From NCBI GenBank assembly GCA_002720865.1, contig PBIO01000030.1:124001-188000 (forward strand): a stretch of 64,000 bases of DNA, read 5' to 3'. Of the stretch, positions 31,576 through 58,966 are shown in pieces (within the stretch, counting starts at the first letter, position 1; each line of letters starts with the position of its first letter). The position numbers and the translations under genes were made by a program. The notes beneath the pieces are model-generated. The model saw only the letters and a program-made list of their open reading frames with translations. It was not told where the DNA came from and searched no databases. Origin of the DNA: Halobacteriovorax sp. (GTDB lineage Bacteria; Bdellovibrionota; Bacteriovoracia; Bacteriovoracales; Bacteriovoracaceae).

Positions 31576-32517
31576 CTATTCTCCAATCAGTTCAGAAATT
31601 AACTTTAAAGTGTTTTCAAATTTTACAAAAGATAAATCAGAGTCTCTTTTCTGCTCAAAATTTTGGATTAAGTCATCAAGGCCTTCTTTAATAAAACCAA
31701 GATTTTGTTCAAAAGATTCCGTATATTTTTGTTTTAAAGAAAAAGTTCCAGGATAATCTGCATTTTCAATTCTCTCTTCTTCGATCCATTCTTTACCACC
31801 ATTCTTTACAACTATCCGTCCTTTTTCAAAAACAAATATCGATTCTAGATAGTGATAAGGGACATCACTCCCCTTAATCAAAACACTTGTTCCTGTTTTA
31901 GTTTTACCTACTCCGACGCCTGAAGATCCGTCTTTTGTAATATTTGAAAAATCAATTGATACTTTTTCATCAACGATAAAGGCTATAAGATCCACCATAT
32001 GAGAACCGTTTGTTAAAAAACCTTTCGAAAAACTCACTTCACAAGATTGAAGCACTCCATAGTTTTTATTTTTTGTGATTTCTCTTATTTTTTTAAAGAA
32101 AGGATGGTGCCTTCTCATGTAATTAACGTTTACTTTAGTATCACCGATCAAACTAACCATCTCTTTAAATTCAGTAATGTTTTCTACAGGAGGTTTTTCT
32201 AACCAGACCATTTTTATGTCACTACTTAACGCTCTCTTGAGGTGATCATAATGAAACTTGCTTGGCGAGCATATGCTCAAGATGTCCACTTTTTCTTCAA
32301 TAAGTTCTTCAATAGAATCAAAAGCTTTTACCTGATATTTTTTTGAAAACTCGTTTCGAGCATCTTCGCAGGGATCAAATCCACCAACAACTTCAACGTC
32401 ATCAGAATTTAGATAAGCTTCCATATGGGTTGTTATTTCATTGTCGCAATTATCCCTATCGTACTTCCAAGCAATATTTCCTAGTCCAATTAGAGCTGCC
32501 CTATACTTCTTAGTCAT
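31576..32517 (-). CDS. Gfo/Idh/MocA-family oxidoreductase
   Basis: A 313-residue NAD(P)-dependent sugar oxidoreductase. The Rossmann motif is ALIGLGNIAWKYDRD, followed by VVGGFDPCEDARNEF, ILSICSPSKFHYDHL and the EKP motif in VWLEKPPVEN; the catalytic-domain HMVDLIAFIV gives the conserved histidine. The frame opens at ATG 32532, but ATG 32517, preceded by GAGAAAG and overlapping the PseF-like stop by 8 bases, is the better start. Proteins of this type next to ulosonate genes usually oxidise or reduce a nucleotide sugar or the ulosonate itself. The substrate is not determined. Confidence 0.83.
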   Translation of the reverse strand: MTKKYRAALIGLGNIAWKYDRDNCDNEITTHMEAYLNSDDVEVVGGFDPCEDARNEFSKKYQVKAFDSIEELIEEKVDILSICSPSKFHYDHLKRALSSDIKMVWLEKPPVENITEFKEMVSLIGDTKVNVNYMRRHHPFFKKIREITKNKNYGVLQSCEVSFSKGFLTNGSHMVDLIAFIVDEKVSIDFSNITKDGSSGVGVGKTKTGTSVLIKGSDVPYHYLESIFVFEKGRIVVKNGGKEWIEEERIENADYPGTFSLKQKYTESFEQNLGFIKEGLDDLIQNFEQKRDSDLSFVKFENTLKLISELIGE

Positions 32518-33217
32518 TTTCTTTCTCGCCATATAAGAACTTAAATTTCAACTCTGCTAGAATCCAATCTTGCTCATTGTCTATGTCTTGACACTCCACT
32601 TCGGGGACTTCGTAGCAAATGGAGTTATCTGAAAACAAATCTGGCTGTTTTTTAAATGTTGCTACTCTTCCCCAATAAAATTGTCCAATATCATGGTAGG
32701 CTGGTTCCAAATCCTGTGATCGGGAGTATTGATGCTCTGGTTGAAACATCGATATTTTTTGATTCTCTATTTTCAACGCTCTTTGAATTGGATAGCTGAA
32801 TCTTGTGACAGGAACGAGTGTGTTTGCTGTAGAGTTACTCATAAGTTCGAAGGATTCCTCTAACTTTTTACTCGTTACAAAGGGTGCTGTCGGGTAAATA
32901 CAGCAGAAAAACTCAAACTCTCTATCGATTCTCTCGTAAGAATCTACCACCTCTAGAATCACATCTCTGGTCATGGAATAGTCGTCTGAATTTTTTTCAC
33001 TTCTCATAAAAGGAACTTTCGCACCTAGGGACTTTGCTATGTTAGCAATCTCTTCATCATCAGTGGAAACCATTACTTCTTCAAAACAACCAGATTCTAT
33101 AGCTGCAATTATAGAATAATATATAATTGGTTTCCCATTAAAATCACGAATATTCTTTCGAGGGATTCTTTTACTTCCCCCTCTTGCAGTAATTATGGCA
33201 ACAGCATTTTTTTTCAT
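32510..33217 (-). CDS. pseF: Pseudaminic acid cytidylyltransferase (PseF-like)
   Basis: A 235-residue CMP-sugar synthetase that would activate a pseudaminic-acid-type nonulosonate with CTP. It begins AVAIITARGGSKRIPRKNIRDFNGKPIIYYSI, the CTP-binding signature, then EVMVSTDDEEIANIAKSLGAKVPFMR, EFFCCIYPTAPFV, and YHDIGQFYWGR. The IPRKNI, IYPTAPF and AYHDxGQFYWG patterns are those of PseF rather than NeuA or LegF. Its ATG overlaps the stop of the upstream gene (ATGA). The remaining pathway genes (PseC, PseG, PseI) are about 8-12 kb away, on the same strand, across an intervening plus-strand block. Confidence 0.9.
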   Translation of the reverse strand: MKKNAVAIITARGGSKRIPRKNIRDFNGKPIIYYSIIAAIESGCFEEVMVSTDDEEIANIAKSLGAKVPFMRSEKNSDDYSMTRDVILEVVDSYERIDREFEFFCCIYPTAPFVTSKKLEESFELMSNSTANTLVPVTRFSYPIQRALKIENQKISMFQPEHQYSRSQDLEPAYHDIGQFYWGRVATFKKQPDLFSDNSICYEVPEVECQDIDNEQDWILAELKFKFLYGEKEND

Positions 33218-34824: not shown

Positions 34825-34913
34825 TTTCGTTCCTTATACCTAGCGCGTCATAAATATTTTAAATTAGGCTTAGCATTTTACATTGGACAACACACCTTCA
34901 GAAGCAATTTCTT

Positions 34914-34975: not shown

Positions 34976-36118
34976 ATGCGAATTTGCGCCCAATGCGTCA
35001 ACGTAACAACAAGGCCAAATATCAACTTCAGTGAGAAGGGATTATGTCCTGTTTGTGTACATTACAATGAAAGAAAAGCAGGTGCTATAGATTGGTCCAA
35101 AAGAAAGGAGCAACTAGCGGAAATTGCGGCCTGGGGAATTGAGAATTCGAATTCGAGTTTTGATTGTATTGTAGGTGTTAGTGGCGGGAAAGATAGCACC
35201 CGCCAAGCGTTTTACATTCGAGACGAATTAAATATGAAGCCTCTTTTGATTAGTCTAATGTACCCTCCTGAGCAAATGCGAGACAGGGGTGCGGCAAATA
35301 TAAGTAATTTAATTTCGCACGGTTTTGATATTCAAACAATTTCTTGTAATCCGATTGTTTGGAAACAAATGATGAAACGAGCTTTTTTGGAATTTGGAAA
35401 TTGGTGTAAAGCTACTGAGTACGCTTTATATTCTAGCGCAGTTCATTTTTCAATTGCGTTTCAGATTCCTTTAATCTTTCTCGGTGAAAATCCTGCATAC
35501 ACAATTGGAGAGCGTCATGGTAGTGACGATGGAGATGCTACTTCGATGAGAAACTGCAACACTCTCCAAGGTGGAGTTTTACCTGACTCGCTTACCGAAG
35601 GTATTAATCCAAAAGATTTATACCTTCATACTTATCCCTCAGAAGAGGACGTTGTAATGGCCAAAACAAGAATCGCATATCTTGGCTATTATGTTGAAGA
35701 TTTCAATTGCATAAAGAATAAAGACTTCGCCGTAGAGAATGGACTTACACTAAGAACAGAGCCCCCTGAAGAGACTGGAGACATAACAAATTCACAATCT
35801 CTAGATGAAGACTTTTACCCCGTAAATCAGTTTTTTAAATTTATCAAACTGGGCTTTGGACAAGTCACAGATAAAGCTGGTGAAATGATAAACCTGGGAG
35901 CTCTAACAAGAGAAGAAGGTTTAGAACTCGTCAAATTATACGATGGAAAATGTCACGATAGATACATCAAAGCTTTTTGTGATTACCTTCAAATTTCAAG
36001 AGAAGAATTTGACGAGGTTGTTGAAAGATATAGAAATAAGGACTTGTTTACCAAAAGAGACAACGAGTGGGTGTTAAATTATGATGTCCAATCATTGGCG
36101 GAGAATGTGAATGAGTGA
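34976..36118 (+). CDS. N-acetyl sugar amidotransferase (WbpG/PseA type), copy 1
   Basis: A 380-residue PP-loop enzyme that converts an N-acetyl group of a sugar nucleotide to N-acetimidoyl, using ammonia from the adjacent HisH-type glutaminase. Cys4, Cys7, Cys24 and Cys27 (CAQC...CPVC) form the N-terminal zinc site. The ATP-binding P-loop is intact as SGGKDS at 69-74. Later segments include FLGENPAYTIGER and FFKFIKLGFGQVTDKAGEMI. The frame opens at ATG 34883, but ATG 34976 has GAGGG seven bases ahead, a promoter just upstream, and starts with the family's conserved MRICAQCV. It is followed by hisH-like, hisF-like and a second amidotransferase gene in one operon. Confidence 0.9.
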   Translation: MRICAQCVNVTTRPNINFSEKGLCPVCVHYNERKAGAIDWSKRKEQLAEIAAWGIENSNSSFDCIVGVSGGKDSTRQAFYIRDELNMKPLLISLMYPPEQMRDRGAANISNLISHGFDIQTISCNPIVWKQMMKRAFLEFGNWCKATEYALYSSAVHFSIAFQIPLIFLGENPAYTIGERHGSDDGDATSMRNCNTLQGGVLPDSLTEGINPKDLYLHTYPSEEDVVMAKTRIAYLGYYVEDFNCIKNKDFAVENGLTLRTEPPEETGDITNSQSLDEDFYPVNQFFKFIKLGFGQVTDKAGEMINLGALTREEGLELVKLYDGKCHDRYIKAFCDYLQISREEFDEVVERYRNKDLFTKRDNEWVLNYDVQSLAENVNE

Positions 36119-36737
36119 TTTGTGTATTATAGATTACGGTATGGGTAATGTCGGCTCAGTTGCAGCGGCCTTAGAGTATCTAGATATCCCTTATTGCGTT
36201 TCAAACTCTGAAGAGGAGATTTCTAAATCTCATAAATTAATTCTTCCTGGCGTAGGGGCCTTTAGTGCTGCAATGGAGAATTTAAAAAAATTAAATTTAC
36301 ATCAAATTCTTGAAAAAGAAGTTATAGAAAATAAAAAACCTATACTTGGAATATGTATTGGAATGCATGTATTTGCACAAAGTTCAACCGAGGGTGGCTT
36401 AAATGAAGGCCTAGGCTGGATTGAAGGACAAGTCACTCGTCTAGAAGAAGTTGATGGAATCAAAATTCCTCATGTTGGCTGGAATAGTGTAGTTGCCCAA
36501 TCTGACTCTCCTATTTTTAATAACTTCTCTAAAGATTCGGAAAAGAACTTTTATTTCGACCATAGTTATCATTTTGAGTGCGACCATAAACTTGTACTAG
36601 GCAAAACAGCTTATGGAAGAACTATTACTTCCGTAATTCAAAAAGATAATATTCTTGCTACACAGTTTCACCCAGAAAAGAGTCAGCTAAATGGATTAAG
36701 ACTTATAAACAATTTTGCAAATTATTTTATGGAATGA
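36111..36737 (+). CDS. HisH-type glutamine amidotransferase for sugar amidination
   Basis: A 208-residue class I glutaminase homologous to HisH. The catalytic Cys is in GICIGMH, and the His-Glu pair in TQFHPEKSQ. The N-terminus CIIDYGMGNVGSVAAALEYL and LILPGVGAF match HisH. Its place between amidotransferase and HisF-type genes, with no other histidine genes nearby, makes it the sugar-pathway paralogue (as in WbpG/HisH2/HisF2 systems) rather than the histidine enzyme. It would supply ammonia channelled to the PP-loop amidotransferase. It overlaps the upstream gene by 8 bases. Confidence 0.9.
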   Translation: MSDLCIIDYGMGNVGSVAAALEYLDIPYCVSNSEEEISKSHKLILPGVGAFSAAMENLKKLNLHQILEKEVIENKKPILGICIGMHVFAQSSTEGGLNEGLGWIEGQVTRLEEVDGIKIPHVGWNSVVAQSDSPIFNNFSKDSEKNFYFDHSYHFECDHKLVLGKTAYGRTITSVIQKDNILATQFHPEKSQLNGLRLINNFANYFME

Positions 36738-36741
36738 GATA

Positions 36742-37602
36742 ATGCTAAAGAAAAGGATCGTTGGAACATTAATAATAAAAAATGGAATCGTAGTTCAAAG
36801 CTTTGGTTTCAATAAATATCTCCCCGTTGGTAAGCCCGAAGTTGCAATTGAGTACTTGGACCGTTGGGGAATCGACGAAATTGTGGTTCTTGATATTGAC
36901 GCAAGCCAAGCGAAAACCTCCCCTTCAATAGAGCCTTTAAAAAAATATTTTAAACATTGTCACGTTCCTGTTGCCATTGGTGGTGGAATAAAATCTAAAG
37001 AAGATTTCCAATCACTAATCAGAAACGGTGCAGATAAAGTAGTCGTAAACTCTATTCTTTTTACTGACCCTGAAACAGTTAAATGGGCTTCGAAAACGTA
37101 CGGTTCCCAATGTATTGTTGGTTCTCTTGACGTAAAAATGGTTGATGGCAAATACTTTGTAAAAGACAGAATAAATAATCAACTTTTTGAATTTGAAAAA
37201 TACATTAAAACTGTAGAAGAACTTGAACTAGGTGAACTGTTTATTACTTCTATTGATAAAGATGGAGCTGGCAAGGGGTTTGATCTAGAGCTTATTGAAC
37301 TTGCCACAAAGACGACACGTTTACCTGTAATTATTAGCGGTGGAGCTGGTAACCCATCACATTTTAGCGAAGCCTTACAGTACGACTTATCTGGTGTTGC
37401 TGCTGCAAACTTTTTTCATTATTTTGAGCACAGTGTAGTTATCACCAAAACACTTCTCGCTGCAAAAAAACACAGTATTAGAATGGACTTAAGAACTCGA
37501 TATCAGCCGGAACAATTATCTGATTCAGGCAGAGTAGCAAAATTAGATGATGCAGCTTTATCAAATCTTCGATTTGTTAAAATTGAAGAAGAGGTAATTT
37601 AG
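36742..37602 (+). CDS. HisF-like partner of sugar amidotransferase
   Basis: A 286-residue (beta/alpha)8 protein homologous to HisF. The start ATG 36742 gives MLKKRIVG, preferred over ATG 36715, which would run far into hisH. Phosphate-site segments are visible: AIGGGIKSKEDF and ISGGAGNPSHF. HisF Asp130 is kept (GSLDVKM), but the strand-1 segment that carries catalytic Asp11 (CLDVKDG in HisF) reads TLIIKNG, so the cyclase acid-base residue is missing. This fits a role as ammonia tunnel and activator of the HisH-type glutaminase rather than imidazole-glycerol-phosphate synthesis. The next gene starts directly after its stop. Confidence 0.88.
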   Translation: MLKKRIVGTLIIKNGIVVQSFGFNKYLPVGKPEVAIEYLDRWGIDEIVVLDIDASQAKTSPSIEPLKKYFKHCHVPVAIGGGIKSKEDFQSLIRNGADKVVVNSILFTDPETVKWASKTYGSQCIVGSLDVKMVDGKYFVKDRINNQLFEFEKYIKTVEELELGELFITSIDKDGAGKGFDLELIELATKTTRLPVIISGGAGNPSHFSEALQYDLSGVAAANFFHYFEHSVVITKTLLAAKKHSIRMDLRTRYQPEQLSDSGRVAKLDDAALSNLRFVKIEEEVI

Positions 37603-38859
37603 ATGAAGTATTGCAAGAGATGTTTATACCCTGAAAATCATCCCTTGAATATTGTTTTCGATGAAAGCGGAATTTGTAGTGGGTGTCGTGTCCACGAAGA
37701 AAAATACACCTTGGACTGGGATGAAAGACTCGATCGCCTAAAGAAAATTGTAAACCAATATAAAAGTAAATCAAGAAATATTCACGACTGTATTATTCCT
37801 GTGAGTGGTGCGAGAGATTCGTATTTCATTGTAGATTTTGTTAAAAACAAATTAGGCTTAACTCCATTACTCGTTACTTATAATAAGCAATATAATACTG
37901 ATAGAGGAATTAGAAATCTCGCTTACCTACAATCTAAAATGGGTTGCGACATTCTTTCTATGACAGTTGACCCCAGACTCGTAAAAAAAATCACTCGTGA
38001 GACATTGAGACTTAAGGGTAGCATTTATTGGCATTGCTTGGCTGGCCAATCAGTTTATCCTGTCAATATTGCGCAAAAATTTAAAATCCCATTAATTATT
38101 TGGGGAGCCCATCAAGGGCTTGATCAAGTCGGAATGTTTTCTCACGAGAATGAAGTGGAAATGACTCGAAAGTATAGAAAAGAACATGATCTCATGGGAA
38201 TGGAAGCTGAAGACTTGGCCAACAACTCCCCTATTCTTTCGTTAGATGATTTAGAGCTTTTTAAATATCCTGGAGATCGAGAAATCGCCTCTGTTGGTGT
38301 AAGAGGGATTTATCTTGGAAACTACCTGCCATGGGATAGTAAATCTCAACATGAAGCAATGATAGCAAAGTTTTCTTATGAAACTCATCAGCTACAAAGA
38401 ACTTTTGATTCATACAATGATGTTGATTGCTTTCATTATTCAGGTCTTCACGACTGGATAAAGTTTGCAAAGTTTGGCTATGGAAAAGTTACGGACCATG
38501 CTTCCCGCGAGATTAGACTTAAAAGACTTACTAGAAGTGCTGGAATAGAACTCGTAAAGAAGTATTCAAATATTAAGCCCAATGATCTAGACGTTTTTTC
38601 AAAATGGTTAGGAGTTGGGCCGGATCAAATTTTAGAAACCGTAAACTCATTTAGATCACCTTCCGTATGGGAAAGGTGTGACGAAGGATTTAAATTAACA
38701 ACATCGGTGATTGAGTCGGCCGACGACCCAAGTGCTCATCTACAAGTAAATGGAGATTGTAATTTTAACAACGACTCCAAACGTGTAAGTGCGGACGAAT
38801 CTGAATATGTACTATTTGGAAGAGGATGGGTTGACAACTATTCCACCATTTATCCTTAG
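37603..38859 (+). CDS. N-acetyl sugar amidotransferase paralogue, copy 2, altered P-loop
   Basis: A 418-residue paralogue of the gene at 34976, directly after the HisF-like gene. The zinc-binding Cys4, Cys7, Cys25, Cys28 are kept. The PP-loop reads SGARDS at 68-73 instead of SGGKDS, changing the second Gly and the Lys that contact ATP phosphates. The end shares FAKFGYGKVTDHASREIRLKRLTRSAG with copy 1's FIKLGFGQVTDKAGEMI. It also carries about 40 extra C-terminal residues rich in Asn, Ser and Asp. It may act on a second sugar or form a heteromeric partner with copy 1. Whether it keeps ATP-pyrophosphatase activity is open. Confidence 0.85.
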   Translation: MKYCKRCLYPENHPLNIVFDESGICSGCRVHEEKYTLDWDERLDRLKKIVNQYKSKSRNIHDCIIPVSGARDSYFIVDFVKNKLGLTPLLVTYNKQYNTDRGIRNLAYLQSKMGCDILSMTVDPRLVKKITRETLRLKGSIYWHCLAGQSVYPVNIAQKFKIPLIIWGAHQGLDQVGMFSHENEVEMTRKYRKEHDLMGMEAEDLANNSPILSLDDLELFKYPGDREIASVGVRGIYLGNYLPWDSKSQHEAMIAKFSYETHQLQRTFDSYNDVDCFHYSGLHDWIKFAKFGYGKVTDHASREIRLKRLTRSAGIELVKKYSNIKPNDLDVFSKWLGVGPDQILETVNSFRSPSVWERCDEGFKLTTSVIESADDPSAHLQVNGDCNFNNDSKRVSADESEYVLFGRGWVDNYSTIYP

Positions 38860-38868
38860 GATCACAAT

Positions 38869-39585
38869 ATGAAAATTGGAGTATTTAGTGTTGATCAAAG
38901 TCCTTTTCTTGGACGCCTTCTGAAAGAGCTGAGCCTTAAAAGAATTCCTGTCGATTTTGTGATCTTTGATGAAAAAAGTACTTCCTCCAAAGACAAAGAG
39001 ATTTTCAATAGAAGAACTGAGGGTAAATTTCAAGTACTCCCCTATGAGAAATTTGATGATATCAAATTTTATAGTGTTTCAAATCATAACTCAGAAGAAT
39101 GTATAAATATTCTTAAAGATCAAAAAGTAGATTTAATGTTAAATGCATCAACCCCGAGAATTTTAAAGAGTGAAGTATTACAGGTAGTAAATCATGGTGT
39201 CCTAAATATGCACCCTGGGTTTCTTCCAGGATACAGGGGTTGCAGTTGCGTTGAATGGGCATTGAAAAACTTTGACCCAATTGGTGTCAGCATACACTTT
39301 ATGAGTGAAGAAATAGACAAAGGTCCTATAGTAATACAAGAAAAAGTTAATCTTTTAGGTGCAGGAAATTATTCAGACATTAGGACAAATGTATACAATG
39401 CCAGTATTAGCTCAATGGCAAAAGCCGTTGAACTACTAGTAATGAATGGATTAAAAATAGTGACTCCCCCAGTAGATGGAGGAACTTATTACAAACCTAT
39501 TTCAGATGAAATTTTCAAAATAGTCTCTTCTGATAAACATATCAAAGAATATTTAGTTAAATCGAAAGGTAAAAAACATGAGTAA
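38869..39585 (+). CDS. Sugar N-formyltransferase, short form
   Basis: A 238-residue N10-formyltetrahydrofolate-dependent formyltransferase. The catalytic triad is visible as the Asn and His in NMHPGFLPGYRG and the Asp in FMSEEIDKGPIV. It lacks the C-terminal OB domain of methionyl-tRNA formyltransferase and matches sugar formyltransferases such as VioF-type enzymes, which formylate a 4-amino or 3-amino group on a nucleotide-linked 6-deoxysugar. It overlaps the following DegT aminotransferase gene by 8 bases; such pairs commonly make an NHCHO-sugar. Confidence 0.87.
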   Translation: MKIGVFSVDQSPFLGRLLKELSLKRIPVDFVIFDEKSTSSKDKEIFNRRTEGKFQVLPYEKFDDIKFYSVSNHNSEECINILKDQKVDLMLNASTPRILKSEVLQVVNHGVLNMHPGFLPGYRGCSCVEWALKNFDPIGVSIHFMSEEIDKGPIVIQEKVNLLGAGNYSDIRTNVYNASISSMAKAVELLVMNGLKIVTPPVDGGTYYKPISDEIFKIVSSDKHIKEYLVKSKGKKHE

Positions 39586-40873
39586 ATTAGCAATCCTAGG
39601 TGGTACGAAACTAAGAGAGAAACCTTTTCCTGCTTACAACACCATAGGAAAAGAAGAAGAAGAGGCCGTTCTCAGAGTTTTACGATCTGGAAAACTTTCA
39701 ACTTATTTGGGTTCATGGCACGATGATTTTTATGGAGGAGTTGAAGTGCAGTCTTTGGAAAAAGAATGGGCTACTTTTTTCAACTCGAAGCATGCCATTT
39801 CTGTTAATTCTGCAACTTCTGGCCTGTATTGCGCGATTGGAGCTGCAGGGATTAACCCTGGAGATGAGGTTATTGTATCTCCTTACACAATGAGTGCCTC
39901 TGCAACAGCAATTATTGCTTATGGAGGAATACCAGTATTCGCGGATGTAGAAAAAGATCTTTTTTGCCTAGACATTGAATCTGTAGAAAAGAATATAACC
40001 AATAAAACAAAAGCTATTATGGTTGTTGATATTTTTGGACAACCTTACAACTCAATTGAAATAAACAAGTTAGCTAAAAAGCACAATTTAATTGTAATCG
40101 AAGATACGGCTCAAGCACCAGGGGCCAAATCAGAAGGCAAATATGCTGGTACTCTGGGAGACATTGGCATTTTTTCATTAAATTATCATAAGCATATTCA
40201 CTCTGGGGAAGGTGGAGTGATTGTAACTGACAACGATGAATTTGCCTGGAAAATGAGACTTATCAGGAATCATGCCGAAGCCGTAATTTCCGCAAAGGGC
40301 TATGAAGATAAAAAAGAACTAAATAATATGGTAGGTTTTAACTATAGGATGACAGAGCTTGAGGCTGCTATTTCAAGAGAACAATTAAAAAAGCTTCCTG
40401 CTCTTCTAGAGCAAAGAATCTCTAACGTTAATTTTTTAAACGAAAAGCTCTCAAGCTTACCTTTCTTATCCATACCTAAGGTTAGAAAAAACTCAACACA
40501 CGCTTATTACCTTCATTCAATAAAGTATGACCAGACAGTCACCGAAGTCCCTAGAAATAAATTCGTAGATGCTGTCAAAGCAGAGCTTCCGCCCACTTTA
40601 CTAAGAGAAGACTCTCCTGTGTTACTTAATTATGGCTATGTAAAGCCTATATACTTAATGCCCATGTATAAAGAGCGAATTGCATTTGGTGAACATCCAT
40701 TTAATTTGACCGACAGAGAATATAAAAAAGGGGACTGTCCTAATTGTGAGGAGCTTCACTTTGAGACTTTGATTGTGAACGAGTTGATTCGTCCGCCTAT
40801 GAGCCAAGAAGACTTGACCGATGTCTATTTAGCATTTGAAAAAGTTTGGAAAAATATTGATCAGCTAAAGTAG
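39578..40873 (+). CDS. DegT/DnrJ/EryC1/StrS aminotransferase
   Basis: A 431-residue PLP-dependent sugar aminotransferase. It begins with LAILGGTKLREKPFPAYNTIGKEEEEAV and has SATSGLYCAIGAAGINPGDEVIV, IEDTAQAPGA (PLP aspartate) and the lysine that would form the Schiff base in FSLNYHKHIHSGEGG. The length and the C-terminal CPNCEELHFETL segment distinguish it from the PseC-type enzyme at 43695. With the adjacent formyltransferase it probably makes a 4-formamido sugar. Its 3' end overlaps the convergent formyltransferase gene by 9 bases. Confidence 0.9.
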   Translation: MSKLAILGGTKLREKPFPAYNTIGKEEEEAVLRVLRSGKLSTYLGSWHDDFYGGVEVQSLEKEWATFFNSKHAISVNSATSGLYCAIGAAGINPGDEVIVSPYTMSASATAIIAYGGIPVFADVEKDLFCLDIESVEKNITNKTKAIMVVDIFGQPYNSIEINKLAKKHNLIVIEDTAQAPGAKSEGKYAGTLGDIGIFSLNYHKHIHSGEGGVIVTDNDEFAWKMRLIRNHAEAVISAKGYEDKKELNNMVGFNYRMTELEAAISREQLKKLPALLEQRISNVNFLNEKLSSLPFLSIPKVRKNSTHAYYLHSIKYDQTVTEVPRNKFVDAVKAELPPTLLREDSPVLLNYGYVKPIYLMPMYKERIAFGEHPFNLTDREYKKGDCPNCEELHFETLIVNELIRPPMSQEDLTDVYLAFEKVWKNIDQLK

Positions 40874-41623
40874 GTTTTTATCTACAATAATCATTTCCTT
40901 GCTACCGATTTTGAAACTTGCGGGAGGGAAAGGCTCAAAAGTCATCGCTCTTATAAAATCAAATATTTGATTTCCTTCCCAATTCCAATCAATCTCCCCA
41001 TTACCTGGTAGTATCTTCTTATTATAGGATGCAAGACTGTCATCTTGAGGTGTAGAGGATAACTCTTCACCATTTGATTTTTGGATTAAAATTTTTCGAA
41101 AAAGTTCGACTCCCTTAGGGAAAATTTTGTCTGATAATGTTGCTGCCGTGTCCGAACGAGATATAGAAACGAGAACGGATTCAATGATTGGACCAGAATC
41201 GACACCTTTTTCCATAAAATGAGCTGTTACTCCAGTTTCTGAATCCCCTTCAAATATTGCGTATGCCAAAGGATAACAACCTCTATGTCTCGGAAGTAGA
41301 GAGGGATGAAGGTTTATAACTCTTTCAGAAAAAAGCTCAATGACTTCCAAAGGAATGATTTGGCTACAACCTATGGAAAATGCAAAATGTGCACCGATTT
41401 CATCGATCTTACTTTTTAACAAATCGCTACTTGCGGGAACCTGTACTAAAACATCTACCCCAAGTTCTTTACATTTTTTTACAAGTGAATCTTTACCTGA
41501 ACCATCGTCTTCGGGATTCCCTACAACTAAGCTGGGTAGGTAGCCAGTCTCTTTAGCCACCTCAAGGCAAGAAATGCCAAACCCCTTTCCTCCAAAAAAC
41601 ACATAAGGCTTTTGATTATTCAT
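40865..41623 (-). CDS. Formyltransferase of the pseudaminate operon
   Basis: A 252-residue formyltransferase different from the one at 38869. The core motifs are INLHPSLLPRHRGCYPLAYAI (Asn, His) and FMEKGVDSGPII (Asp). A C-terminal segment GEIDWNWEGNQIFDFIRAMTFEPFPPASF resembles the methionyl-tRNA formyltransferase C-domain hinge, as in sugar formyltransferases of the ArnA type. It follows pseC, pseG and pseI in one minus-strand operon, the place where a PseH acetyltransferase would be expected. It would formylate the 4-amino group of the altrosamine intermediate or a nonulosonate amine; which one is inference. Confidence 0.86.
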   Translation of the reverse strand: MNNQKPYVFFGGKGFGISCLEVAKETGYLPSLVVGNPEDDGSGKDSLVKKCKELGVDVLVQVPASSDLLKSKIDEIGAHFAFSIGCSQIIPLEVIELFSERVINLHPSLLPRHRGCYPLAYAIFEGDSETGVTAHFMEKGVDSGPIIESVLVSISRSDTAATLSDKIFPKGVELFRKILIQKSNGEELSSTPQDDSLASYNKKILPGNGEIDWNWEGNQIFDFIRAMTFEPFPPASFKIGSKEMIIVDKNLL

Positions 41624-41627
41624 GTAG

Positions 41628-42689
41628 TTACCCTAAATATTCCCATTTAAAAGGTGTCCCTGCTTCAATATCTCTATTTACAGTTCGATCTAAAAGTTGC
41701 TCATAAAACTTTGGTTCAACACCTAGAGCCGGCCTTACTGATCTTAAGTTTTCAGGGGTCAACTTCTCACCCTTCTTCAATCCTTTGCATACATATAAAG
41801 ATCTTCTCAGGTTAAGGCTCGGGGCTTCTTTATTCGTATGGCCGTACCTTACTACACCTAATGATTTCCAAGATCTTTCACTTTCTACAACAAGGCTTCT
41901 CAATTCATGAGGTTCTAATGAAAAAGCCGAATCAACACCTCCATCATCTCTAGATAAAGTGAAGTGTTTTTCAATCATCACTGCCCCTAGTGCAATAGCA
42001 GAAAGTGGAACTCCAACACCCAATGTGTGGTCTGAAAGTCCAACCGGCACATCAAATAACTTTGATAAATGCGAAATAGTTTTAATATTAGAGTCTGCTG
42101 GATCAGCAGGATAAGTACTTGTACATTTTAATAAAATTAAATTTTTATTTCCTTCAGATTTAACGGCATTAACGGCGTCGTCAATCTCTCCGACACTGGC
42201 CATGCCAGTGGAAATAATAATTGGCTTGCCTGTGCGAGCAACTTTTTTAATTAGTGGAATATCATTACACTCGAAGGAAGCGATTTTATATGCAGGGACA
42301 TCAAGTTCTTCCAAGAAATCAACCGCTGTATGATCAAAAGGAGAACTAAAACAAAGCATTCCTTTTTCCTTACACCTTTCAAATAATTCCTTATGCCATT
42401 CCCAAGGTGTATATGCTTCTCCATATAACTCGTACAATGATTTTCCTTTCCATAGTTCCAGACTTTCACCAATCGTAAAGTCTTCAGACTTAATATTTAG
42501 AGTTATTGTATCTGGTGTGTAGGTTTGTAATTTAACAGCATGTGCACCTGCTTCAGCGGCCGCATCAATAATCTCATAGGCTCTTTCTATGGATTGATTA
42601 TGATTACCCGACATTTCAGCAACAATAAAAGGCTTATGGCCTTTTCCGACTTTAATATTACCGATACTTATCTCTTCATTAAAAAACAT
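41628..42689 (-). CDS. pseI: Pseudaminic acid synthase (PseI)
   Basis: A 353-residue NeuB-family synthase that condenses phosphoenolpyruvate with the 6-deoxy-diamino hexose to a 9-carbon ulosonate. It begins FIVAEMSGNHNQSIERAYEII, the PseI version of the family N-terminus (AEMSGNHNQ rather than AEIGINH). It also has GAHAVKLQTYTPDTIT, CFSSPFDHTAVDFL, PIIISTGMASVGEI, LLKCTSTYPA and LSDHTLG. Residues from about 290 form the SAF/antifreeze-like domain (RRSLYVCKGLKKGEKLTPENLRSVRPALG). AAAGGA is five bases before its ATG. It lies 2 bases from pseG. Confidence 0.95.
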   Translation of the reverse strand: MFFNEEISIGNIKVGKGHKPFIVAEMSGNHNQSIERAYEIIDAAAEAGAHAVKLQTYTPDTITLNIKSEDFTIGESLELWKGKSLYELYGEAYTPWEWHKELFERCKEKGMLCFSSPFDHTAVDFLEELDVPAYKIASFECNDIPLIKKVARTGKPIIISTGMASVGEIDDAVNAVKSEGNKNLILLKCTSTYPADPADSNIKTISHLSKLFDVPVGLSDHTLGVGVPLSAIALGAVMIEKHFTLSRDDGGVDSAFSLEPHELRSLVVESERSWKSLGVVRYGHTNKEAPSLNLRRSLYVCKGLKKGEKLTPENLRSVRPALGVEPKFYEQLLDRTVNRDIEAGTPFKWEYLG

Positions 42690-42691
42690 GT

Positions 42692-43702
42692 CTATCCTTT
42701 AAGTTCCTTGGTGATCTCTTCTATAATTTTCCTAGGCCCATCAACGTTAACGAGAAGTTGCCCATATTTACTCATTTCAGATCTCTTTTCAAAATTGAGT
42801 TTTAGTTTATTAAAGTCTTCTGACAATTCCCAGCCATTTCCTTGAATTCTTCCACCATAAATAGCTGTTTTCGTTTTCAGAAAATTTTTTGCTAAGTCCT
42901 CTTGGTGATCCACAATGCTCAAAAGAATCATAGGAACCCCTAAAAGAGCACATTCGTACTTAATAAAACCCGAGGTGATTATAGCCAAATCGGCGTTAGA
43001 AATTAGGTCTGCAATTTCATCAACATTCTTCAAGAATTTTATTCTGGGATATTGTTTCGAGAGTTTTACAATCTCTTCTTCTGAGACTTCCATTCCTATC
43101 AAATAATCGCATTGTAAATAATCGCATTCATCAAATTTCTCTAGGAAAATTTGATGTGTCTCTAGAGAAGTACTACCACCTATACAGACAAAAACGCTTT
43201 CAAGGTTAGTTCTGATTTCTTTTTTATATCCAGACTCTATCGTTTCGCGATATTGGTCTTGAAAAATAAAAAACTTTTCACCAACTAGGTTTAATTTAGC
43301 CTTTGGTGTCAATTCAGCCGATATACCTTGTGGAAAAATTAAAGTATCTGCTCCCTTTAAGTCATAGGAGATATCATTAAAAACACAAAGATTTCGGCAA
43401 AAGGTTTTTAAAAGATTGGCCCTCAGTTCAGAAATCTCTAACATATCGACAAAAACAATATCAAATCCGGTTTCCCACGATTCTTTTTCTGTCTCTACAG
43501 AAAGTCCTTCTTCCAACCTAGTTGATGAAAAATCTTCCCCGATATACTTGGCAACTTCATCACTTCCTTCAAAATAGAAAATTATTTCATCAGATATCTT
43601 TTTAGACTTCAAATATCGTGCAAAACTTATGGCCCTAAAAACATGTCCCCAACCATATGTCCCACCACCTTTTACTCTGAAAGCAACTTTTAATTTATCC
43701 AA
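42692..43702 (-). CDS. pseG: PseG: UDP-sugar hydrolase of pseudaminate pathway
   Basis: A 336-residue GT-B-like hydrolase that removes UDP from the 2,4-diamino-2,4,6-trideoxy-altropyranose. The N-terminus KVAFRVKGGGTYGWGHVFRAISFARYL holds the PseG histidine motif (GxGHxxR, here GWGHVFR). Later parts include VFVCIGGSTSLETHQIF and ADLAIITSGFIKYECALLGVPMILLSIVDHQEDLA, typical of PseG/MurG folds. The start is TTG with GGGGAG upstream, overlapping pseC by 8 bases. A 15-base tandem duplication in the coding sequence (43101-43130) gives the repeated CDYLQCDYLI; it is in frame and likely tolerated. Confidence 0.9.
   Translation of the reverse strand: MDKLKVAFRVKGGGTYGWGHVFRAISFARYLKSKKISDEIIFYFEGSDEVAKYIGEDFSSTRLEEGLSVETEKESWETGFDIVFVDMLEISELRANLLKTFCRNLCVFNDISYDLKGADTLIFPQGISAELTPKAKLNLVGEKFFIFQDQYRETIESGYKKEIRTNLESVFVCIGGSTSLETHQIFLEKFDECDYLQCDYLIGMEVSEEEIVKLSKQYPRIKFLKNVDEIADLISNADLAIITSGFIKYECALLGVPMILLSIVDHQEDLAKNFLKTKTAIYGGRIQGNGWELSEDFNKLKLNFEKRSEMSKYGQLLVNVDGPRKIIEEITKELKG
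43101..43130. repeat. 15-base tandem duplication inside pseG
   Basis: Bases 43101-43115 and 43116-43130 match at 13 of 15 positions. On the coding strand this gives CDYLQ followed by CDYLI. The unit is a multiple of three, so the frame is kept. It looks like a recent slippage duplication; whether relatives lack it would need an alignment. Confidence 0.7.
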
Positions 43703-44906
43703 TTGCTCCCCTTAAGGTCTCTATTACTCTATCCATGTCTTGCTCTCGCATTCCAGGATAAATAGGAATGCTTAAACATTGAGAATAATATTTTTCAGCA
43801 TTGGGGAAATCCCCCATTTTATAGCTATATCGCTTGGAATAATAAGGCTGAAGATGAACAGGAATATAGTGGACTTGAGTTCCAACCCCATTCGAACTTA
43901 ATCTTTTCATTAATTCGTTACGGTCAATGCTTAATTTTTCAAAGTCGATTAGGATTGGAAAAAGATGATATGCGCTTCCATGATACTCTTCTTTATCTAA
44001 AGTTTTTATGACGTTTTCATCGAATTGACTTCTAAAAATCTCAGTATATTTACTCGCTAGTTTTCGTCTCTCATCAATAAAGCCATCAAGTTTCTGTAGC
44101 TGTGCAGAAGCTAGAGCTCCCTGAAACTCTGTAGGTCTAAAATTAAAACCGACTTGATGAACCTCATAATACCAAGAATTAACATTTCCATTTGCATCAA
44201 AAGCTAGCTCTTTATTTTCCCATTGTTCACTATCTCTTTGCATACTATGATTTCTTAACAATACTAACTTTTTGTAAAGCTCAGTATCATTTGTTGTTAT
44301 AACCCCCCCTTCACCTGTCGTAATATTTTTAACCGGATGAAGTGAAAAAATCGTCATATCACTAAATTCGCAACTCCCTACAGGAAACTCTTTTCCATCT
44401 TTTGTTATATAGCTTGCACCTAAAGCGTGAGAAGCATCTTCAACTATTCGAACCTTGAATTTCTCTTTGAGCTTATTCAGTTCTTGCATGTCACAAGAGA
44501 GTCCACCAAAGTGAACAGGCATAATGCATTTAACATTAGAGTTTTCTAAAAGTTTATTTTCAACAGACTTAGAATCAATATTTGGGTACTCTTCTAATGT
44601 ATCGGCAAAAAGGACATCCCCCCCACAATATCTCGCGGCATTTGCAGAAGCTACAAATGTCATCGGAGTAGTTACGAGATAGTCACCTTCTTTAAAATCA
44701 ATTGCAGCCAACGCTAAGTGCAATGCTGTTGTTCCACTGCTTGTGAATAAGGCATGTTTCACCTTACATTTAGAAGCTAGATCCTCTTCGAACTCAGCTA
44801 CTTTTTTAGACATGGACAACCAGCCACTCCTCAAACTCTCGCTGACGGCCTCTACTTCTTTTTCACAAAAAACAGGTTTACTATAGGGTAGAAATTCTTC
44901 TTTCAT
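43695..44906 (-). CDS. pseC: PseC-like 4-aminotransferase
   Basis: A 403-residue DegT-type PLP aminotransferase matching PseC, which aminates UDP-4-keto-6-deoxy-L-AltNAc. It begins FLPYSKPVFCEKEVEAVSESLRSGWLSMSKKVAEFE; PLP residues are in SSGTTALHLAL, IVEDASHALGA, and the Schiff-base Lys in FSLHPVKNITTGEGGV. AAGG is eight bases before the ATG. Two G7 runs occur in the coding strand (44303-44309, 44618-44624), both coding for Gly-Gly; slippage there would shift the frame. It is first in the minus-strand operon pseC-pseG-pseI-formyltransferase. A PseB dehydratase for the preceding step is not in the window. Confidence 0.93.
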   Translation of the reverse strand: MKEEFLPYSKPVFCEKEVEAVSESLRSGWLSMSKKVAEFEEDLASKCKVKHALFTSSGTTALHLALAAIDFKEGDYLVTTPMTFVASANAARYCGGDVLFADTLEEYPNIDSKSVENKLLENSNVKCIMPVHFGGLSCDMQELNKLKEKFKVRIVEDASHALGASYITKDGKEFPVGSCEFSDMTIFSLHPVKNITTGEGGVITTNDTELYKKLVLLRNHSMQRDSEQWENKELAFDANGNVNSWYYEVHQVGFNFRPTEFQGALASAQLQKLDGFIDERRKLASKYTEIFRSQFDENVIKTLDKEEYHGSAYHLFPILIDFEKLSIDRNELMKRLSSNGVGTQVHYIPVHLQPYYSKRYSYKMGDFPNAEKYYSQCLSIPIYPGMREQDMDRVIETLRGAIG

Positions 44907-54927: not shown

Positions 54928-55030
54928 ACTAACCCGACGCAACAATCCTTCTCCCTTCTTTATAGCTTAAATACTTGATGGACGGTGTAGACTATGTGAA
55001 AATCCGGTAAAAATGCCCTTACATGAGCTT

Positions 55031-55036
55031 AGGAGG
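55031..55036 (+). promoter_or_regulatory. Consensus ribosome-binding site AGGAGG
   Basis: A full AGGAGG is followed after CTTA by ATG 55041. It decides the start of the oxidoreductase gene in favour of 55041 over the in-frame ATG at 55023, which would place this site inside the coding region. Confidence 0.7.
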
Positions 55037-55040
55037 CTTA

Positions 55041-56111
55041 ATGTACAAAGTTAAAGCTGTTGGAGCTGGCTCCATTGGTAATCATATGGCCTATGCTTGT
55101 CGCCAGCTAAACTGGGACGTCACTATTTGTGATATCGACAGTGCCGCACTAGAAAGAACAAAAAACGATATTTATCCTTCTAGGTATGGAGCTTGGGATA
55201 CAGAAATAAAACTGGCTTTGAACTCAGAAGTAGAAACAGAAAATTTCGACGTTGTAATAATTGGTACTCCTCCTGATACTCATATTGCTATAGCAATCAA
55301 TGAGCTCAAGAATAGTTCTCCAAAGGTGATGCTAATTGAAAAACCATTATCTACACCAGAACTTGAAAACTTAAACGAACTTGAAGAACTTGCTAAATCC
55401 AAAGGCACAAAACTTTGTGTTTCTTATAACCATACGACTACTCAAAATACTCTTTTTGCTGAAAACCTAATTCGAAAGGGAGTTTTAGGTACTCCAAAAA
55501 GTATAAACGTTCAGTGGCTTGAGCATTGGGGTGGTATTTTTGGTGCACACCCATGGCTCGCTGGACCACATGACTCTTATCTTGGTTTTTACAAGCGAGG
55601 TGGTGGTTCAACTGGTGAACATTCCCATTGTATAAATATTTTTCAACATTTCTCTAGAGTTCTTGGAATGGGTGAAGTGACTGAAGTTAATGCGACAATG
55701 GATATGATCGAAAATGATAAAGTCTCTTATGATCAAAATGCAATAATTGCTCTAAGAACTGAAAACGGTTTAGTTGGCTCCGTCATTACCGATGTTCTTA
55801 CGAAGCCTGCTAAAAAAGCTGTCAGGATACAAGGCGATAAAGGTTTTATCGAATGGTATGTAAACTACAAGGACGGTTTCGATGCTATCATGTATCAAAG
55901 TGAAGGTGGAGAAATCCAAGAAGAACTCATTTCAAAATCTAGACCTGATGACTTTCAAAATGAAATTAAACATGTCGGAGACATCTTATCTGGACATGTA
56001 AAAATAGAAAACTCTCCCATTTCTTTTGAAACGGGCTTACAGACGATGAAAGTAATCCAAGCTGCTTATAGCTCAGCTATGAATAAACGACTGGTACAGA
56101 TAAATCAGTAA
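55041..56111 (+). CDS. Gfo/Idh/MocA-family oxidoreductase
   Basis: A 356-residue NAD(P)-dependent oxidoreductase starting at ATG 55041 behind AGGAGG. The Rossmann motif is VKAVGAGSIGNHMAYACRQL, then VTICDIDSAALERTKN and VVIIGTPPDTHIAIAI; the EKP motif is in LIEKPLSTPEL, and the catalytic-domain block is GGGSTGEHSHCINIFQHFSRV. It is followed 15 bases later by the NeuB-cupin gene. It differs from the one at 31576. It probably oxidises or reduces a sugar feeding the ulosonate synthase, for example the precursor aldose; this is inferred from order only. Confidence 0.86.
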   Translation: MYKVKAVGAGSIGNHMAYACRQLNWDVTICDIDSAALERTKNDIYPSRYGAWDTEIKLALNSEVETENFDVVIIGTPPDTHIAIAINELKNSSPKVMLIEKPLSTPELENLNELEELAKSKGTKLCVSYNHTTTQNTLFAENLIRKGVLGTPKSINVQWLEHWGGIFGAHPWLAGPHDSYLGFYKRGGGSTGEHSHCINIFQHFSRVLGMGEVTEVNATMDMIENDKVSYDQNAIIALRTENGLVGSVITDVLTKPAKKAVRIQGDKGFIEWYVNYKDGFDAIMYQSEGGEIQEELISKSRPDDFQNEIKHVGDILSGHVKIENSPISFETGLQTMKVIQAAYSSAMNKRLVQINQ

Positions 56112-56126
56112 TTAGAGGAACCCAGT

Positions 56127-57650
56127 ATGCAAAAACTATTAAAAGAAGACATGTTTGTACTAGACCTGGCCAATAACCATCAAGGTGATGAAGAGCATGG
56201 CTTAAACATAATTCGTAACATGGGTGAAGTAGCTAAAAAGCACGGATTGCAAGCGGCACTTAAATTTCAGTTTAGACAATTAGGAACTTTTATTCACCCT
56301 GACTATAAGGGCCGTGATGATGTTAAACACATCCCTAGGTTTGAAAGTACTGTCCTCACTTTTGATACTTACAAAAAGTTTACGGCAGAAGTAAAAAAAC
56401 AAGGAATGCTCTCAATTAGTACTCCTTTTGATGAAGAGTCTATCGCTTGGATTCATGAGCTAGATATCGATATTATCAAGGTTGCCAGTTGTTCAGCTTC
56501 TGATAAACCTTTACTTGAGGCAATCGCAAATGCCGGTAGACCTGTCATAATCTCGACAGGTGGTTTAACTCTTTCTCAAATAGATTGGCTTGTAAGTTTT
56601 TTCGAAGCTAAAAAAGTAGACTTTGCGATCATGCATTGTATTTCACTATACCCGACTCCCCCAGAGCAACTTAACTTAAATCAAATTGATCTCTTGAAAA
56701 AAAGATATCCTGAAATTCCAATAGGCTGGTCAACTCATGAAGAGCCTACCAATCTTGATGCCGTTAAAATTGCTTATGCAAAAGGCGCTCAACTTTTTGA
56801 AAGACATGTTGGTATGAACACGGATAAATATAAGCTAAATGGATACTCATCTACTCCAGACGAAGTAGATGCATGGATGGCTGCTTATAAAGTCGCAAAA
56901 GACTCTTGTGGTGGAACTGAACGTTCACCAGCCCCACCTGAGGAAATAAATGCACTTAGAACTTTATTTAGAGGTGTGTGGGCCAAAAAAGGAATTAAAA
57001 AAGGCGAAATCATAAAAAGAGAAGATATCTTCTTTGCAATGCCACTCCAGGAAGAGCAACTAGTTAGCGGTGATTTTTCAAATGATATCGTTGCAGATAG
57101 AGATTACGAAGCAAACCAACCTATTAATGAAAATATCGTTAAGTCGGATGTTGCACCGGATGACTTAGTTTACGAAATTATGCTCCAAGTAAAGGGTATG
57201 CTTAACAATGCACGAATCTTTGTAAATAAAGATGCAGGTATTGAAATTTCTCACCACTACGGACTTGAAAGATTTAGAGAGTTTGGTTGTGTGATTATTG
57301 ATTGTATCAACAGAGAGTATGCTAAGAAGCTATTAATCCAACTTCCAAGACAAAAGCACCCCTACCATCTTCACAAGAAAAAGGAAGAAACATTTCAGCT
57401 ACTATATGGTGACTTAGAAGTAGAAGTTAACGGCCAAAGGTCAAAACTCCTTCCAGGTGACACATTTTTAGTTGAAAGAGGTCAATGGCATAAGTTCCAC
57501 ACTTTAGATGGAGCTATTTTTGAAGAAGTATCAACGACTCACTTTAACAATGATTCGTATTACGAAGACCAAAAAATCGCTAAAATGGAGCGCTCAGAAA
57601 GAAAAACCAATGTAGACTCTTGGGCTGAGGCATTTCACTGGCGATACTAA
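56127..57650 (+). CDS. NeuB-family ulosonate synthase fused to cupin
   Basis: A 507-residue enzyme. Residues about 5-260 are a NeuB barrel (LDLANNHQGDEEHGLNII, ALKFQFRQL, LSISTPFDEESI, VIISTGG, IMHCISLYPTP, IGWSTHEEP); about 277-340 an SAF domain (TLFRGVWAKKGIKKGEIIKRED); about 350-507 a cupin with metal-site HLH at 414-416, Glu 421, PGD at 443-445 and His 455 (RGQWH). The synthase would join phosphoenolpyruvate to an aldose; the cupin may be an isomerase or epimerase providing that aldose. Its N-terminal motif NNHQG differs from PseI (SGNHNQ). It follows an oxidoreductase gene by 15 bases and precedes HAD and CMP-sugar synthetase genes. Confidence 0.88.
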   Translation: MQKLLKEDMFVLDLANNHQGDEEHGLNIIRNMGEVAKKHGLQAALKFQFRQLGTFIHPDYKGRDDVKHIPRFESTVLTFDTYKKFTAEVKKQGMLSISTPFDEESIAWIHELDIDIIKVASCSASDKPLLEAIANAGRPVIISTGGLTLSQIDWLVSFFEAKKVDFAIMHCISLYPTPPEQLNLNQIDLLKKRYPEIPIGWSTHEEPTNLDAVKIAYAKGAQLFERHVGMNTDKYKLNGYSSTPDEVDAWMAAYKVAKDSCGGTERSPAPPEEINALRTLFRGVWAKKGIKKGEIIKREDIFFAMPLQEEQLVSGDFSNDIVADRDYEANQPINENIVKSDVAPDDLVYEIMLQVKGMLNNARIFVNKDAGIEISHHYGLERFREFGCVIIDCINREYAKKLLIQLPRQKHPYHLHKKKEETFQLLYGDLEVEVNGQRSKLLPGDTFLVERGQWHKFHTLDGAIFEEVSTTHFNNDSYYEDQKIAKMERSERKTNVDSWAEAFHWRY

Positions 57651-57651
57651 A

Positions 57652-58260
57652 ATGCCCCTTAGTGAAAAAAAGGTATTTGTTTTTGATTTTGATGGAACTT
57701 TAGTTGATTCAAATAAAATCAAAAAGGATGCCTTCTTTCAGCTAACCGATAATGAGCAGTTTAATTTAATTCTTGAGAAGACTCATTCTAAGATGCCTGA
57801 AGTATCACGTTTTATTTTACTAAGAAATGTTCTTGAACAAATGAAACATGATGATATTCAAAGTGAAGTCGATCGACTTTGCTCATTGTACGGAAGTTTA
57901 GTAGAAGAAAAAACTATTGCCTGCACGGAAATGCCAGGTGCGATTGAACTACTTAAGCATTTAGGCCAAAAAAAAGTTAATATTTATCTAAGTTCAAACA
58001 CCCCTGAAATTAGTTTGAAAAAGATAATTTATAAAAGGGGTTGGGATCAATACTTTAAATGTCTTTATGGCTCTCCCCGCAATAAATCAGAAACGATTAA
58101 GCTAATTTCTAAAAATGAAAACCTATCGGATTCCAGTAGGATTGTCGTTTTAGGTGATGGTGAGTCTGATAAACTGTCCGCAGAATCCATCTGCTGTGAC
58201 TTTGTAGACGTAAATTCCGTTTCACTAGTAGATGTCTTAAAGGAACTAAGAAATGTATAA
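57652..58260 (+). CDS. HAD-superfamily phosphatase
   Basis: A 202-residue HAD hydrolase: motif I FVFDFDGTLVDSN, motif II in YLSSNTPE (Ser), Lys in RNKSETIKLI, and motif IV VVLGDGESDK. All four catalytic groups are present, and a helical cap sits after motif I. Between the synthase and CMP-sugar synthetase genes, it most likely removes the phosphate from a ulosonate 9-phosphate (or 8-phosphate), by analogy with KdsC and sialate 9-phosphate phosphatases. That would imply a phosphorylated aldose substrate for the synthase. Confidence 0.87.
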   Translation: MPLSEKKVFVFDFDGTLVDSNKIKKDAFFQLTDNEQFNLILEKTHSKMPEVSRFILLRNVLEQMKHDDIQSEVDRLCSLYGSLVEEKTIACTEMPGAIELLKHLGQKKVNIYLSSNTPEISLKKIIYKRGWDQYFKCLYGSPRNKSETIKLISKNENLSDSSRIVVLGDGESDKLSAESICCDFVDVNSVSLVDVLKELRNV

Positions 58261-58966
58261 GGGAAAAAAAATACTAGCTGTTGTGCCTGCTAGAGGTGGC
58301 AGTAAGGGTATCAAGTTAAAAAATCTTCGCTCAGTTGGAGGTCATACGCTTATAGAGTGGATAGCAAAAACAGTTAAGGACTCAACCACGATAGACAAAA
58401 TAGTTGCCTCAACAGACCATGATGAAATTGCTAAAGAATGCGAAAATTTTAATATTGAAGTACCTTTCCGTAGACCTGAATCACTATCAGGAGACAGAAT
58501 AGGAGATCTCGAGGTTCTCACTCACGCACTAACAGAGTCTGAAAAAGTATACAATACTAATTTCGATGTTGTAGTCATGCTTCAACCGACATCTCCTCTG
58601 AGAACGAGTGAGCACGTTGAAGAATGCATCAAAAAACTCATCGACAATGATTTTGACTCAGTTTGGACTGTTTCCGAAACAGACTCCAAAGGTCACCCTT
58701 TTAAGCAACTAACAATTGAAGGTGAGAACCTTGAATATTACGACAAGGAAAATGGAGGAAAGATTATTGCGAGACAACAACTTACCCCAGTTTACCATCG
58801 AAATGGTGCTGCATACGCTATATCAAGAGATTGCCTTTTAGGTCAAAAATCAATCATGGGAAAAAAATCATCTTACCACTTAATTCAAGGATCAATGATC
58901 AGTATCGATTCTGAGTTTGATATAGATCTTGTTAACTATTTTTTAAGCAAAAAGAATTGCACATGA
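58253..58966 (+). CDS. CMP-ulosonate synthetase (NeuA/LegF-like)
   Basis: A 237-residue cytidylyltransferase: VVPARGGSKGIKLKNLRSVGGHTLIEW, IVASTDHDEIAKECENFNIEVPFRRPESLSGD, VVMLQPTSPLRTSEHVEECI and YHRNGAAYAISRDCL. The QPTSPLR and NGAAY motifs are typical of NeuA and LegF and differ from the PseF-like gene at 32510 (IYPTAPF, GQFYWG). The ATG overlaps the HAD stop by 8 bases and the stop overlaps the next ATG (ATGA). It would activate the product of the NeuB-cupin enzyme with CTP. Confidence 0.9.
   Translation: MYKGKKILAVVPARGGSKGIKLKNLRSVGGHTLIEWIAKTVKDSTTIDKIVASTDHDEIAKECENFNIEVPFRRPESLSGDRIGDLEVLTHALTESEKVYNTNFDVVVMLQPTSPLRTSEHVEECIKKLIDNDFDSVWTVSETDSKGHPFKQLTIEGENLEYYDKENGGKIIARQQLTPVYHRNGAAYAISRDCLLGQKSIMGKKSSYHLIQGSMISIDSEFDIDLVNYFLSKKNCT

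Follow-up and report, generated by a model that had tools for sequence, protein, structure and literature searches.

The window, a stretch of 64,000 nucleotides from Halobacteriovorax sp. (contig PBIO01000030.1), carries four adjoining genes in which two homologues of N-acetyl-sugar amidotransferase (NASAT), termed A1 and A2 here, flank a HisH-type and a HisF-type subunit. The four-gene set is a widespread module, A2 has a single origin, and A2 alone shows erosion of the ATP site. Judging from these sequences, we consider it probable that A1, A2, HisH and HisF form one complex in which A1 would use ATP and A2 would be a non-catalytic or barely catalytic partner, much as in the Ctu1/Ctu2 pair.

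The four genes form a block without real gaps on the + strand. A preliminary description of this DNA had reported two sugar amidotransferases flanking HisH/HisF, the second with SGARDS as its PP-loop, and all four reading frames were confirmed at the following coordinates:

34976-36118, + strand: A1, NASAT (TIGR03573, 272 bits; 8WEX fold, TM 0.80)
35180-35197, + strand: A1 PP-loop SGGKDS (S-G-G-K-D constant across all A1)
36111-36737, + strand: HisH-type glutaminase subunit (TIGR01855, 218 bits, above the cut-off; catalytic Cys in GICIG and QFHPE present)
36742-37602, + strand: HisF-type subunit, WbuZ/HisF2-like, with an extra C-terminal tail (profiles and motifs)
37501-37599, + strand: HisF C-terminal tail, Y...R...DD..L..L.F.KIEEEVI (comparison of four-gene with single-copy sets)
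37603-38859, + strand: A2, NASAT paralogue with a drifted ATP site (TIGR03573, 338 bits; 8WEX fold, TM 0.74)
37804-37821, + strand: A2 PP-loop SGARDS (sequence)
38107-38109, + strand: A2 Ala169, replacing an invariant Glu (alignment with single-copy NASATs and A1)
38725-38856, + strand: A2 C-terminal extension with YVLFGRGW (comparison with A1 and single-copy enzymes)

Both A1 and A2 exceeded the curated TIGR03573 cut-off of 203 bits, and the two shared 27% identity over 386 columns. Their AlphaFold models (mean pLDDT 88 for A1 and 82 for A2) matched 8WEX from Legionella pneumophila best by far, which is, to our knowledge, the only solved NASAT structure. A1 showed the profile score, the SGGXDS PP-loop and the zinc tetracysteine (CxxC...CxxC, all four Cys kept) of TIGR03573, as well as the Glu of a 'GEN' motif. 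A2 showed the score, the fold and the tetracysteine, with SGARDS in place of SGGXDS; A2 is a TIGR03573 homologue by descent, an assignment that does not extend to membership as an active amidotransferase. A1 starts with an ATG at 34976, in a frame open from a TTG at 34883. HisF starts with an ATG at 36742, and the A2 ATG at 37603 comes directly after the HisF stop. The best profile match of HisF was WbuZ, at 211 bits against a cut-off of 299.7, and its score also lay under the HisF cut-off. A HisH search of the genome, which is rated 100% complete, returned none besides the gene in the block, and the genome has no true HisF, so these two genes do not duplicate the HisH and HisF of a histidine pathway.

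We then assessed how widely this arrangement occurs. Scanning with short peptide patterns of A2 that left out the PP-loop revealed 11 loci with 51-64% identity in Nitrospirota, Bacteroidota, Chlorobiota, Margulisbacteria, Woesearchaeota and Thalassospira (Alphaproteobacteria), and all 11 held A1, HisH, HisF and A2 together. The four-gene order, which the preliminary description had put forward for a search of other genomes, was thus recovered, usually as A1-HisH-HisF-A2 (n=9) and otherwise as HisH-HisF-A2-A1 (n=2). Within the phylum of the window, three further genomes (G112, G218 and G141) carried the A2 clade, each with A1. Absence of the second copy from most relatives with the cluster, which the preliminary description had named as an outcome against its finding, was not observed: A1 was present in 15/15 genomes with an A2-clade gene (the window and 14 others), a sampling that outside the window's phylum consists of the one scan with A2. 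Conversely, across 368 genomes of that phylum, to which the check for A1 without A2 applies, the A1 clade was limited to the same four genomes as A2; most related sets there had one amidotransferase, one HisH and one HisF. The genes adjoined HisH and HisF in 13/15 genomes, HisF lying slightly apart in G218 and the set being split over two contig ends in G141. In most loci, the HisF stop and the A2 start touched or overlapped.

To trace the origin of the two copies, we placed 66 family members on a tree. A2 formed a single clade (100/99), as did the A1 core (100/99), and the A1-like copies of G112 and G218 grouped with A1 with weak support. The closest relatives of A2 were single-copy enzymes with a normal SGGKDS and their own HisH/HisF, so that A2 probably descends from an active enzyme. 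Distances of A1 and A2 correlated with each other (r 0.87), and those of A1, A2, HisF and HisH correlated over 13 loci (r 0.77-0.90), which fits joint inheritance and transfer of the set. Mean pairwise identity across loci was 60% for A2, 48% for A1, 46% for HisF and 49% for HisH, and the A2 clade had 19 invariant residues not common to the rest of the family.

The ATP site was compared across the family, whose motif is SGGXDS (PMC10607449). Among 14 A2 PP-loops, SGARDS occurred eight times and SGSRDS, SGAKDS, SGGRDS, SGGKDS, DGGRDA and TGTGDD once each. The altered loop that the preliminary description had singled out is not a chance event, since 12/14 A2 departed from SGGXDS and the two-copy set recurred in 14 other genomes. 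S-G-G-K-D was kept in 32/32 core single-copy enzymes (the sixth letter being G in three) and in six plasmid homologues. On the tree, 12 PP-loop substitutions fell in A2 (branch length 4.8), one in A1 (6.4) and two in three groups of single-copy enzymes (14.9). Only part of the SGGKDS to SGARDS change carries weight: the K to R exchange alone is uninformative because K sits at the variable position of SGGXDS, and on sequence grounds the meaningful change in the window is that of the second G to A. That change is mild, and the window A2 may still bind ATP. SGGKDS is intact in the A2 of G112. In TGTGDD (L073) and DGGRDA (L042) the ATP site is plainly disrupted, and these two orthologues should not use ATP.

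A larger change had been missed by the preliminary description. The 'GEN' Glu was replaced by Ala or Val in 14/14 A2, even in that of G112 with its normal loop, and was kept in 15/15 A1, 32/32 single-copy enzymes and 6/6 plasmid homologues; three very distant family members likewise had no such Glu. This residue lies at the end of the fifth core strand and should be near the PP-loop in this fold, and its position and conservation suggest that it is catalytic. We also considered a reciprocal loss of active-site residues, His to Asn in A1 against Glu to Ala in A2. Nearly all other members have His at the A1 position, and a divergent pair (L074 10814 and L087) has Arg; the idea was dropped, as a single-copy plasmid NASAT (L098) also has Asn.

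HisF and A2 each carried an additional C-terminal segment. The HisF tail is about 33 residues long and was found in 13/14 four-gene sets and 0/28 single-copy sets. The A2 extension spans roughly 45 residues, ends in a conserved YILIGKG-like sequence and was present in every complete A2; neither A1 nor any single-copy enzyme has it. Together with the touching or overlapping HisF and A2 genes, these tails suggest extra interfaces within a larger assembly, in which they are likely to be the contact sites.

A heteromer with the first copy, one of the options that the preliminary description had offered for A2, therefore fits best, because A1 and A2 co-occur strictly, ATP-site erosion is confined to A2, and HisF and A2 have extra tails. 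The products of the four genes would work together to form an amidine on a nonulosonic (pseudaminic-type) sugar. HisH would hydrolyse glutamine, with the ammonia travelling through the HisF barrel; A1 would spend ATP at its PP-loop to activate the sugar's N-acyl oxygen, which ammonia would then displace to give an amidino group. A2, as the descendant of a once-active NASAT, would be an obligate partner subunit of A1, of HisF or of both. It has kept its fold and zinc site as well as a pocket of high conservation, but its ATP site is no longer fully constrained. It would help to position the substrate, to assemble the complex or to hand over ammonia, and would not be a second ATP-dependent enzyme. 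Loss of ATP binding, which had earlier been named as an outcome against the finding, is likely in some A2 members; it speaks for the heteromer and leaves the finding intact. Several observations count against a heteromer, namely the mild loop change in the window A2, the normal loop in G112, and the crystal dimer of 8WEX, whose interface residues are mostly unconserved and whose authors doubt the need for dimerisation (PMC10607449). Co-occurrence in an operon would also be expected for two consecutive enzymes. A bolder version, to which we give slightly less than an even chance, sees A2 as a pseudoenzyme subunit whose addition made the three-component acetamidino system an obligate synthase of four subunits, the tails of HisF and A2 being adapted to this complex. 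In this version, the synthase would have spread by horizontal transfer among bacterial phyla and may have reached one archaeal lineage, represented by a single Woesearchaeota assembly.

Known systems were compared with the module. The WbpG/WbuX/PseA/PtmG sets with HisH2 and HisF2 (TIGR03573; 8WEX) share its families, zinc tetracysteine, fold and HisH- and HisF-type partners, as well as surroundings of nonulosonic or amino-sugar genes. However, the single-copy sets examined had one NASAT per HisH/HisF group and no C-terminal tails of this kind on HisF or the amidotransferase, whereas the module always adds a paralogue with an altered ATP site. The Ctu1/Ctu2 (Ncs6/Ncs2) tRNA thiolase is likewise a duplicated PP-loop pair with one intact SGGKDS and one relaxed loop, and both of its subunits are needed, as is proposed for A1 and A2. 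A homodimeric enzyme there became a catalytic and a diverged subunit (PMC10067955), and the PP-loop is less conserved in CTU2 proteins (PMC4014090). The features of such a pair, an intact and a degenerate ATP site that always co-occur, were found in A1 and A2. Ctu1/Ctu2 belongs to another PP-loop subfamily, differs in substrate and chemistry and has no HisH/HisF, so the comparison concerns how the pair works and not membership; as a close precedent from another PP-loop family, it supports reading A2 as a partner subunit. How WbpG-type enzymes amidinate sugars has hardly been studied mechanistically. A natural pair of which one member keeps and the other loses its ATP site, and in which HisF and A2 have matching tails, opens a direct route to the ATP, sugar and ammonia sites. 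If A2 is a partner subunit, annotation calls it a second 'N-acetyl sugar amidotransferase' although it probably performs no amidination alone.

The genes around the block were examined for the likely sugar:

31576-32532, - strand: Gfo/Idh/MocA oxidoreductase (homologue beside the set in relatives)
32510-33217, - strand: PseF, CMP-pseudaminic acid cytidylyltransferase (TIGR03584, 308 bits)
38869-39585, + strand: formyltransferase-like gene after A2 (PF00551)
39578-40873, + strand: DegT aminotransferase (56% identity with the DegT gene next to the set in L034, L035, L036 and L041)
40865-44906, - strand: PseC, PseG-like, PseI, then a second formyltransferase (pseudaminic-type precursor pathway; profiles)

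PseF, PseI and PseC scored above their cut-offs, and with the PseG-like gene they surround the set, so a pseudaminic-type sugar is the likely substrate. The formyltransferase-like gene at 40865-41623 stands beside PseI, the PseG-like gene and PseC where the acetyltransferase PseH would be expected, which suggests an N-formyl pseudaminic acid. Several relatives resemble the window in having a Gfo/Idh/MocA-type oxidoreductase and a second DegT aminotransferase alongside the set; speculatively, these enzymes may provide an extra amino group on the sugar, and a literature search on triamino nonulosonic acids gave no match. In Thalassospira (L042), the 17 kb around the set held no recognised nonulosonic genes, so its substrate may differ. 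At 55023-58966, the window contains a second nonulosonic-type group, made up of a Gfo/Idh oxidoreductase, a PseF-like cytidylyltransferase and a NeuB-like synthase of 507 aa with a divergent sequence; none of the three reaches its family cut-off.

The chief alternative is that A1 and A2 are each active as independent amidotransferases, share HisH/HisF and modify different positions or sugars. Campylobacter jejuni has two NASATs in one organism, PseA for Pse5Ac7Am and PtmG for Leg5Am7Ac (PMC13317340), a pair described as acting on two CMP-sugars and compared with A1/A2 by description only. The highly conserved A2 pocket with its specific invariant residues, the nearest single-copy relatives of A2 working with their own HisH/HisF, and the parts of more than one nonulosonic pathway in the window also point this way. 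However, the TGTGDD and DGGRDA loops and the loss of the invariant Glu from all A2 weaken the earlier suggestion that A2 amidinates a second position, and A2 was never seen without A1 among these genomes. We regard two active enzymes as unlikely, at about a quarter of the weight of all readings.

A further suggestion of the preliminary description was that A2 takes another acyl group; in its formyl form, A2 or the pair would be specialised for N-formyl groups and yield a formamidino sugar. The formyltransferase-like gene directly after A2 and the second one in the PseC-PseG-PseI group would suit this, but several four-gene relatives have a GNAT acetyltransferase beside A1 instead, so the formyl gene and A2 do not co-vary. 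A single-copy set (L079 6188-9526, genome G113) also has a formyltransferase-like gene, located between NASAT and HisH. This specialisation is not supported for A2 and seems improbable to us. That A2 is a functionless, decaying duplicate, as drift of its PP-loop could suggest, is contradicted by intact reading frames kept across phyla, conservation exceeding that of A1 and a clade-specific tail, and by its sequence A2 as a whole is not decaying; we give that idea almost no credence.

Mobile elements were also searched. No A2 relatives were found in phage records, viral contigs gave a single relative, distant and single-copy, and plasmid records gave distant homologues only (<32% identity), some without HisH/HisF nearby. 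The plasmid NASATs of Azospirillum brasilense and Agrobacterium (L101 1163-4122 and L086 4997-9143) lie beside or near an asnB-type glutamine-hydrolysing synthetase. That of A. brasilense has no annotated HisH/HisF within about 3 kb, and AsnB might be its ammonia supplier. An Alistipes plasmid (L098 3001-4146) carries a single NASAT beside neuA/neuB/neuC-type genes, without HisH/HisF within 3 kb. In a Bacteroidetes locus (L034 10615-13163), a second, very different HisH-HisF-NASAT set follows soon after the four-gene set.
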